In this document: positions 60,826 through 61,988 of the stretch, piece after piece
Numbering within the stretch: position 1 is the stretch's first letter
Layout of the letters: each line of letters opens with the position of its first letter
Assembly: GCA_013041925.1 (NCBI GenBank)
Contig: JABDRB010000012.1
Location: 1 to 64,000 of the forward strand
DNA length: 64,000 bases
From: Akkermansiaceae bacterium
GTDB taxonomy: Bacteria > Verrucomicrobiota > Verrucomicrobiia > Verrucomicrobiales > Akkermansiaceae
Reading direction: 5' to 3'
Translations under genes and position numbers: made by a program
Notes under the pieces: model-generated
The model's database searches: none
What the model was told of the DNA's origin: nothing
Seen by the model: the letters and a program-made list of their open reading frames with translations, nothing else

Positions 60826-60998
60826 GACCAATGCGTAAGAATAGGCATGGAATCGATGTGAAAGCTCGTGAGGTTAAAAAAAGTTCCCCTCGACGGAATA
60901 AAATTACGTGCTATTCATCTCAGGAATGTGGGTTGAGGCAACGAGGCCTTATTCACTCCAATAATACAAACAGAACCATAAACGACCCAAACGATTCA

Positions 60999-61568
60999 AT
61001 GAAAACAACGATGAAATACCTGACTGGAGCTATTTTTCTAGGAATGACCCACCTTGCCATGGCGGCCGCCCCTTGTGATGACGCGCAGAAGCAATGCTCA
61101 ACTCAGGCGAAAGCAACGTGCAAAGCTGCAAAGTGCGACGCCTCATCCGGTAAGGGACTCACAAATGCCCATTATATGGTTACGGGAATGGTATGTAAGG
61201 GGTGCTCTGGATCCATTACCAAAAAATTGGCCGCAATCGATGGTGTCAGCGTCAAAAAAGTCTGTCATGAGTCCGGATCTGCCATCGTTGATTACGACCC
61301 GAAGAAGGTCAACAAAGACGCCATTAAAGCGGCTCTCAATCAGGGGAAATTCAAGGTTACTGCCGAGCGTGTCAGCGTCCCCGTCAAGGGAATGACCTGT
61401 GGCAAGTGCTCGGAGAAGTTGACCGCCGCCCTCAATGGTGTCGATGGTGTCAGCGCCAACCTTGTTTGTCACAAGAGCGGCAAGGCGGTCGTCGATATCG
61501 ATTGCGCCAAGAGTTGCCGAGACACCGTGGTGAAGACAATCCAAAAAGCCGGCTTTAAAGCGGAATAA
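60999..61568 (+). CDS. Exported protein with two heavy-metal-associated (HMA) domains
   Basis: A 189-residue protein. A signal peptide (cleavage near AMA-A, residues 20-23) precedes a Cys-containing linker with Cys26, Cys33, Cys41 and Cys46. HMA domain 1 spans about 57-122 with MVCKGC (Cys66, Cys69); HMA domain 2 about 125-188 with MTCGKC (Cys134, Cys137). Each domain also has a Cys-His pair in the same place (Cys89-His90, Cys157-His158), not usual for HMA domains. Total 12 cysteines. HMA domains carry Cu(I), Zn or Hg ions; an exported metal carrier or buffer is likely. Followed by a Cys-rich lipoprotein gene. Divergent from purL. Confidence 0.85.
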   Translation: MKTTMKYLTGAIFLGMTHLAMAAAPCDDAQKQCSTQAKATCKAAKCDASSGKGLTNAHYMVTGMVCKGCSGSITKKLAAIDGVSVKKVCHESGSAIVDYDPKKVNKDAIKAALNQGKFKVTAERVSVPVKGMTCGKCSEKLTAALNGVDGVSANLVCHKSGKAVVDIDCAKSCRDTVVKTIQKAGFKAE

Positions 61569-61663
61569 TTCTCGCGCTATCATCTCCTAGAGAATGAGGA
61601 GGGTCAATCGAGGCCTTCCTCACAATGAACTACCTACAACCTACAACTACCCATAACAACCTG

Positions 61664-61879
61664 ATGAAAAAAATAATCCAAAGCCTGTCCCTGATGTCCG
61701 TCGTTGCCGTTTCTGCGTTTGCCCTGAGCTCCTGTGCCGTTGATGCTGGCTCTGCTGCCCAGTGTCCTAAGAAGTGCTGCGCTAAGAAAGCCTGTGCTTC
61801 CAGTTGCTTCAAAGCATGTTGCGCAGAGAAAAAAGCCTGCTCAGTTGGCCGCGTCAAGGCGTGCTGCGTGAAACCATAA
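61664..61879 (+). CDS. Small cysteine-rich lipoprotein, metallothionein-like composition
   Basis: A 71-residue protein with a signal sequence and lipobox L-S-S-Cys24. The 48-residue mature part contains 11 Cys (including the lipidated one) and about ten Lys, in repeats such as CPKKCCAKKAC, CFKACC and KKACSVGRVKACC. Such Cys/Lys density suggests metal binding, but no metallothionein family is recognised. The start at MKKIIQSL is preferred over an ATG 13 codons earlier. It lies 95 bases after the double-HMA gene and before a terminator, so the two are probably cotranscribed and may exchange metal. Confidence 0.8.
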   Translation: MKKIIQSLSLMSVVAVSAFALSSCAVDAGSAAQCPKKCCAKKACASSCFKACCAEKKACSVGRVKACCVKP

Positions 61880-61902
61880 CCACGTTCCATCCACACTCAT
61901 CA

Positions 61903-61940
61903 CGCCCGGTGTCTCCTGTGAGATTCATCGGGCGTTTTTT
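61903..61940 (+). terminator. Rho-independent terminator after the Cys-rich lipoprotein
   Basis: CGCCCGGTG pairs with CATCGGGCG (one G-T pair) around a 14-base loop, then six T. Ends the metal-binding pair before ribF. Confidence 0.8.
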
Positions 61941-61988
61941 GTTTTGTTGTTTGTTGTTTTGTTCTTTCCAAGTAAGCATGTTGGCGCG

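Follow-up and report, generated by a model that had tools for sequence, protein, structure and literature searches.

A double-HMA protein and a cysteine-rich lipoprotein of Akkermansiaceae as probable members of an ECF regulon for extracytoplasmic soft-metal buffering

The window analysed here is a stretch of 64,000 nucleotides from contig C22 of an Akkermansiaceae genome (G000) which is 98% complete. On its forward strand lie a gene for an exported protein with two HMA domains and a gene for a Cys-rich lipoprotein, followed by an intrinsic terminator (Table 1). This is the arrangement described by the original prediction, and the translations, the Pfam HMA match, the Cys counts and the fold of the hairpin all agree with it. 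The pair is flanked upstream by purL on the opposite strand, and downstream by ribF and mdh, all named from their own sequences. Plasmids searched for DNA similar to the locus gave none, and Rfam gave no matches near the two genes.

Table 1. Positions of the features discussed, in the window unless a contig (C) or locus (L) label is given.
Feature	Position	Strand	Basis
Exported double-HMA protein, 189 aa	60999..61568	+	Translation; signal peptide, Cys-rich linker, two CxxC HMA domains, VCH extra in each
Cys-rich lipoprotein, 71 aa (mature 48 aa, 11 Cys)	61664..61879	+	Translation, Cys counts, alignment of 11 homologues
ECF-type promoter, HMA gene: GGAATAA-N16-TCTCA	60895..60922	+	104 nt upstream of ATG; motif match
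ECF-type promoter, lipoprotein gene: GGAATAA-N16-TCCTA	61562..61589	+	102 nt upstream of ATG; motif match
Hairpin in predicted lipoprotein mRNA leader	61594..61622	+	Fold of 61569-61663: -21.7 kcal/mol, z -3.4
Intrinsic terminator after lipoprotein gene	61902..61942	+	Hairpin ~61902-61935, -20.9 kcal/mol, z -4.5, then U6
Exported HMA selenoprotein, G000	L079:5257-5595; contig C29 ~147256-147594	+	In-frame TGA, SECIS-like hairpin, SelB and tRNA-Sec
ECF sigma and predicted membrane anti-sigma genes, G000	C6:101570-103070 (L154:1501-3001)		
Cus-type operon behind the promoter motif, G000	C19:182668-190500 (L213:1169-9001)		

The signal peptide of the HMA protein, as predicted from its sequence, ends in HLAMA, and is followed by a linker with four Cys residues (C26, C33, C41 and C46). 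The first HMA domain (residues ~57-121) carries GMVCKGC and the second (residues ~123-187) GMTCGKC, and in each the Cys of an additional VCH motif (C89 and C157, respectively) is placed at the end of the second strand. The protein matched Pfam HMA (PF00403) in two stretches at 59.8 bits (cut-off 24.8), and the CxxC metal motif is present. The top NCBIfam model was NF041115 (metal-binding (seleno)protein UxxU), which gave 80.9 bits over two stretches and stayed below its cut-off of 95. The CopZ models also fell short (66.3 bits against 91, or lower), and the N-terminal signal peptide is at odds with the cytoplasmic location of CopZ. An AF2 model was obtained with modest confidence (pLDDT 59.7 and 56.4, for the protein alone or with one homologue), and was used for fold comparison only, with no CxxC-to-VCH-Cys distances taken from it. 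Its best Foldseek matches were the tandem HMA domains of ATP7B and CopA, while single domains matched CopZ and MerP. All CxxC and VC motifs are kept in five sequences, at 41-69% identity to the window's protein. The HMA protein is predicted to be exported and would most likely bind a soft metal at its CxxC sites, Cu(I) being the best candidate.

The lipoprotein begins with an n-region, an h-region and a lipobox of the L-x-(S/A/G)-C type as read from the sequence (MKKIIQSLSLMSVVAVSAFALSSC; lipobox LSS/C), and the Cys at position 24 is invariant in 11 homologues. The 11 Cys residues of the mature protein include this lipid-bearing one. Both proteins are thus predicted to be exported, by signal peptide and by lipobox, which upholds the extracytoplasmic location proposed for them. 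In ten relatives the lipoprotein has 9-12 Cys in 33-50 mature residues, or 20-27%, and aromatic residues and His are nearly absent. Retention of the Cys in these ten relatives, and of the CxxC and VC motifs in the five HMA sequences, indicates a Cys richness beyond chance. By its composition the lipoprotein appears metallothionein-like; in Pfam and NCBIfam it matched no family, and hence no described metallothionein model. Although Cys content is kept in the family, the spacing and number of the residues vary, with odd as well as even counts. Such variation is easier to reconcile with a metal-thiolate or thiol buffer than with a fixed disulfide fold, without amounting to proof, and it weakens the alternative that the Cys residues form structural disulfides. 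Profile matches outside the genus were mostly due to similarity of the signal peptide. Two g16 genomes encode short CC-containing lipoproteins of 44-45 aa, which are possible distant relatives.

Each of the two genes is preceded by its own ECF-type promoter-like site (Table 1), and the HMA gene ends within the lipoprotein promoter, its stop codon being part of the -35 element. The pattern GGAATAAN{15,17}TCHYA (GGAATAA-N15-17-TCHYA) has exactly two matches in the 64-kb window, one per gene and both with a 16-nt spacer, as against a mean of 0.06 in shuffled windows (0/100 shuffles reached two); this count overstates the case, since the motif was first noticed at these very genes by alignment of their upstream regions, and the pattern search is partly circular, with independent support coming from the genes found elsewhere. 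GGAATAA is also present upstream of the lipoprotein genes in four other genomes (G010, G013, G006 and G026). The predicted leaders of both genes form hairpins (61594-61622 and 60923-60960) which have CGAGGCCTT in common.

None of 200 shuffles folded as well as the terminator hairpin after the lipoprotein gene, and in the relatives inspected a comparable hairpin with a T tract was seen 3' of this gene. In G010 and G013 a terminator hairpin with a T tract also lies between the HMA and lipoprotein genes (folds with z -2.5 and z -5.8); the window has no terminator at that position. As an intergenic terminator is found in these two relatives and each gene has its own promoter-like site, a single operon with one promoter was dropped as a model, and the two genes are best seen as co-regulated units, between which read-through may occur in the window. 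The terminator that the pair had been proposed to share is strong and does follow the lipoprotein gene, but one obligatory operon does not follow from it.

The search for the pair covered 58 related genomes. The order purL-HMA-lipoprotein-ribF was found in four genomes of the genus (G000, G010, G013 and G008), at 47-69% identity of the HMA protein, and so the linkage on which the original prediction depended is conserved. The locus of G010 comes from a record named Akkermansiaceae bacterium, in a contig which begins inside purL. One scan of genome contigs with P0002 gave a single close relative. In six further members of the genus (G001, G002, G003, G005, G006 and G009) the lipoprotein gene lies directly before ribF and the HMA gene is absent, which makes the lipoprotein the more stable resident of the locus. 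In G011 there is only a single HMA domain (L029:5926-6330, minus strand), in which the Cys residues of both CxxC and VCH are replaced by Tyr (GMTYADY, VYHKSG), and the lipoprotein at the same locus is shortened to 51 aa with five Cys (L029:5596-5748, minus strand). These sequences look like joint decay, or a change of function, of the two proteins. Other genera of the family also have exported HMA proteins whose N-terminal stretch is Cys-rich, at other loci and with no lipoprotein adjacent. In four of these (G028, G033, G021 and G077) CxxC is lost from one or both domains, and the Cys-rich stretch and the VCH Cys are kept; given this loss, metal binding may not be the sole role of the exported HMA family. 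A genus member lacking the lipoprotein (G012) encodes two small exported Cys/Lys-rich proteins (L183:1223-1432 and L076 ~5991, both on the minus strand), one behind the promoter motif and one with GCxGKKKxCGKKDEATLL repeats, which are possible functional replacements for it.

The promoter motif was then followed genome-wide. Across four genomes there were 33 matches as against 13 with the reversed pattern, and in thirteen more genomes 86 as against 36; the enrichment is therefore ~2.4-fold over the reversed control, and roughly 40% of single matches may be due to chance. The kinds of gene which recur behind the motif are one ECF sigma gene and genes for exported MsrB (G000, G013, G008 and G011), exported MsrA (G008, G011 and G012), exported peroxiredoxin (G013, G008 and G012) and exported thioredoxin-like proteins, of which the sigma factor, one MsrB, one MsrA and one peroxiredoxin were confirmed by Pfam and NCBIfam and the others are named from sequence. 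Where the region upstream of an Akkermansiaceae orthologue of the ECF gene could be placed (14 genomes; those of G024 and G018 could not be), it always has a GGAATAA site, for the most part at one fixed distance, with some variants of the -10 element. This points to autoregulation of the sigma factor. The product of the gene after it is predicted to be a membrane anti-sigma factor. It has a single hydrophobic segment, and its C-terminal domain keeps GC(K/R) and (V/I/L)C(F/Y/L), in many cases with CxxC as well; G004 has lost the second Cys by replacement (LSF). Since the HMA and lipoprotein genes have their ECF-type promoter in common with the ECF gene, it is likely that this sigma/anti-sigma pair regulates them.

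Also behind the motif in G000 is a Cus-type operon, which encodes, in order, an exported protein rich in Cys, a YHS-like lipoprotein, a channel of the outer membrane (CusC), a CusB-like adaptor that carries heavy-metal-binding domains, and a pump of the CusA/CzcA family. In G022 the matching first three genes are found behind the motif. The Cys-rich leader protein (PACCCALIGC) belongs to no known family, and a similar leader gene is present in G022 (L160). In five members of the genus (76-92% complete) no ECF orthologue was found, and these have neither the HMA gene nor a GGAATAA upstream of the lipoprotein gene. This co-variation of sigma factor, motif and HMA gene agrees with the regulon model, but the genomes are incomplete. 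Persistence of the lipoprotein in these five genomes suggests that it can also be used outside the ECF regulon.

As for the metal, a Cus-type pump and the repair of methionine sulfoxide speak for Cu(I) or Ag(I), although the CusA/CzcA score does not separate Cu pumps from those for Zn, Co or Ni. Four P-type ATPases were found in G000 by PF00122, two with a CPC motif, one with SPC and a fourth in which none was read; one of the CPC enzymes has an N-terminal Cys cluster and resembles CcoI/FixI. No HMA domain was recognised in any of the four by Pfam at the usual thresholds, at which the only HMA domains of G000 are the two of the double-HMA protein and a third in another exported protein. With its HMA domains confined to exported proteins and none on the ATPases, G000 would not be using them in the usual CopZ-CopA relay. 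A parallel has been described in Caulobacter, where CopA is likewise missing (PMC12617631).

The other exported protein has an in-frame TGA at the metal site of its HMA domain (GMRUGVGC, hence UxxxC), and UxxxC homologues were found in nine relatives (G001, G004, G006, G011, G060, G088, G095, G113 and G119). A hairpin AGTGC-RGTCY-GCACT, in which the R-Y pair covaries, lies ~20 nt after the TGA, and both SelB and tRNA-Sec were found in G000. With these features present, and with U at the UxxxC position, a reading of such one-TGA HMA matches as frameshifts or decay was dropped. The nearest NCBIfam models remained below cut-off, including NF041115, whose UxxU motif differs. The promoter motif is present upstream of several of the UxxxC genes, but not of the one in G000. 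A further exported protein, with two HMA-like domains, is encoded in G100 by a gene which has two TGA codons in frame (GGGUGAAN and GGTUAQT; L140:815-1375, plus strand). The second ligand position is missing there, and the protein is possibly a divergent selenoprotein.

Taken together, we consider it probable that the HMA protein and the lipoprotein belong to an envelope regulon for metal stress and for oxidative stress on thiols and methionine, under an autoregulated ECF factor, and that they form an extracytoplasmic buffer for a soft metal, most likely Cu. According to this model, an oxidant or metal in the envelope would be sensed through the extracytoplasmic Cys residues of the anti-sigma factor, and the ECF factor, once freed, would read the GGAATAA motif and raise the expression of the pump, the repair enzymes, the HMA carrier and the lipoprotein. 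The latter two would bind and buffer the metal and keep its free concentration low outside the cytoplasm, the lipoprotein acting as a metallothionein-like thiolate buffer anchored to the membrane by its lipidated Cys. The CusCBA-type pump of the regulon would expel the metal, and exported MsrA, MsrB and peroxiredoxin would repair or prevent oxidation. Handover of metal from the HMA protein to the lipoprotein is possible. A joint role in metal/thiol stress is favoured by the predicted location of the two proteins, by the linkage of their genes and by a promoter motif which these share with the CusCBA-type operon and the envelope redox-repair genes; against the strict carrier-and-sink pair first proposed stand the lipoprotein without its partner in six genomes, the HMA protein alone in other genera and the terminator between the genes in two relatives. 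The two look like members of one regulon which are often side by side.

The strongest competitor, though an unlikely one, is a thiol-redox pair or oxidant sink, in which the Cys residues of the two would serve mainly to scavenge oxidants or to cycle disulfides in the envelope, metal binding being secondary. This would account for a promoter motif in common with the genes for exported MsrA, MsrB, peroxiredoxin and thioredoxin-like proteins, for the retention of the VCH Cys and Cys-rich linker where CxxC is lost in other genera, and for the Tyr residues in place of the HMA ligands in G011. It does not sit well with a CusCBA-type metal efflux operon behind the identical promoter motif, nor with the retention of both CxxC sites in the window's HMA protein and its four closest relatives.

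We regard it as quite improbable that the HMA protein works in the manner of MerP, scavenging Hg(II) or another metal and passing it on to an importer or a pump. Of the exported HMA proteins MerP is the best known, it is one of the fold matches, and the MerP, MerTP and UxxU models all match the protein below their cut-offs (45.9 bits against 92.55 for MerP, TIGR02052). However, the neighbours are purL and ribF with no merT or merA adjacent, and the partners found in the putative regulon indicate RND efflux and methionine repair rather than a mer system. That two unrelated small exported proteins should lie side by side by chance has very little probability, for although six genus members have the lipoprotein without the HMA gene, the two genes carry the identical promoter at a similar distance, and their pairing is kept in four genomes while the HMA proteins have diverged to 47-69% identity. 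A modified copper-binding peptide like the bufferins (Buf1/Buf2), which are Sec-exported, Cys-rich, copper-protective and in some cases lipoproteins (PMC12452194), is the least credible reading of the lipoprotein and was rejected for G000, as these RiPPs are modified by an MNIO enzyme (PF05114) of which the genome has no match, the Caulobacter control genome giving one, and no modifying enzyme adjoins the lipoprotein gene.

Work on HMA carriers has dealt almost wholly with chaperones of the cytoplasm and with domains of ATPases, MerP being the exported exception. The starting premise that HMA domains are normally cytoplasmic or fused to P-type ATPases overlooked this classic periplasmic protein. 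MerP resembles the window's protein in its export, HMA fold and CxxC site; it has one HMA domain and is encoded with merT and merA, whereas the protein described here has two domains, a Cys-rich linker, the VCH extras and no mer genes. The fold and the CxxC ligands are also those of CopZ and of the HMA tandems in CopA and ATP7B, the tandems having two domains as well, but all of these are cytoplasmic or ATPase-fused, unlike this exported, stand-alone protein. In comparison with the UxxU family of NF041115, Cys replaces Sec, and there are two domains with a signal peptide and linker. The lipoprotein is small and very rich in Cys, like the bacterial metallothioneins SmtA and PmtA. Metallothioneins of this type are not known to carry a lipoprotein signal, whereas a lipobox is present here, and the lipoprotein differs further in matching no family and in having no conserved Cys spacing.

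Parallels to the regulation are known. In H. influenzae the ECF factor RpoE2 controls MsrAB, for repair of methionine sulfoxide in the envelope, and a DoxX operon (PMC7907618), and EcfF-OsrA of B. japonicum combines an autoregulated ECF factor with a Cys-dependent anti-sigma factor (PMC3420878). The anti-sigma protein described here differs from these, and the putative regulon adds HMA proteins, a Cys-rich lipoprotein and a Cus-type pump. Among the papers searched, none described the pairing of an exported HMA protein and a metallothionein-like lipoprotein. The kinds of system involved, namely exported HMA proteins, stress regulons under ECF factors and metal buffers rich in Cys, are already known.

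In its widest form, the interpretation is that Akkermansiaceae have a redox- or metal-sensing ECF regulon in which HMA carriers outside the cytoplasm (the Cys-containing double-HMA protein and, in several genomes, the UxxxC selenocysteine form), the metallothionein-like lipoprotein and a Cus-type pump make up a copper-buffering relay without a relay of the CopZ-CopA type. We put this forward tentatively, and with less assurance than the buffering role of the pair. The regulon is open to direct testing, as the sigma factor, anti-sigma factor and promoter sequence are all named. If the interpretation is true, Verrucomicrobia, among them relatives of Akkermansia, a genus of the gut, would have a form of periplasmic metal buffering unlike CopZ-CopA, CusF or the bufferins.
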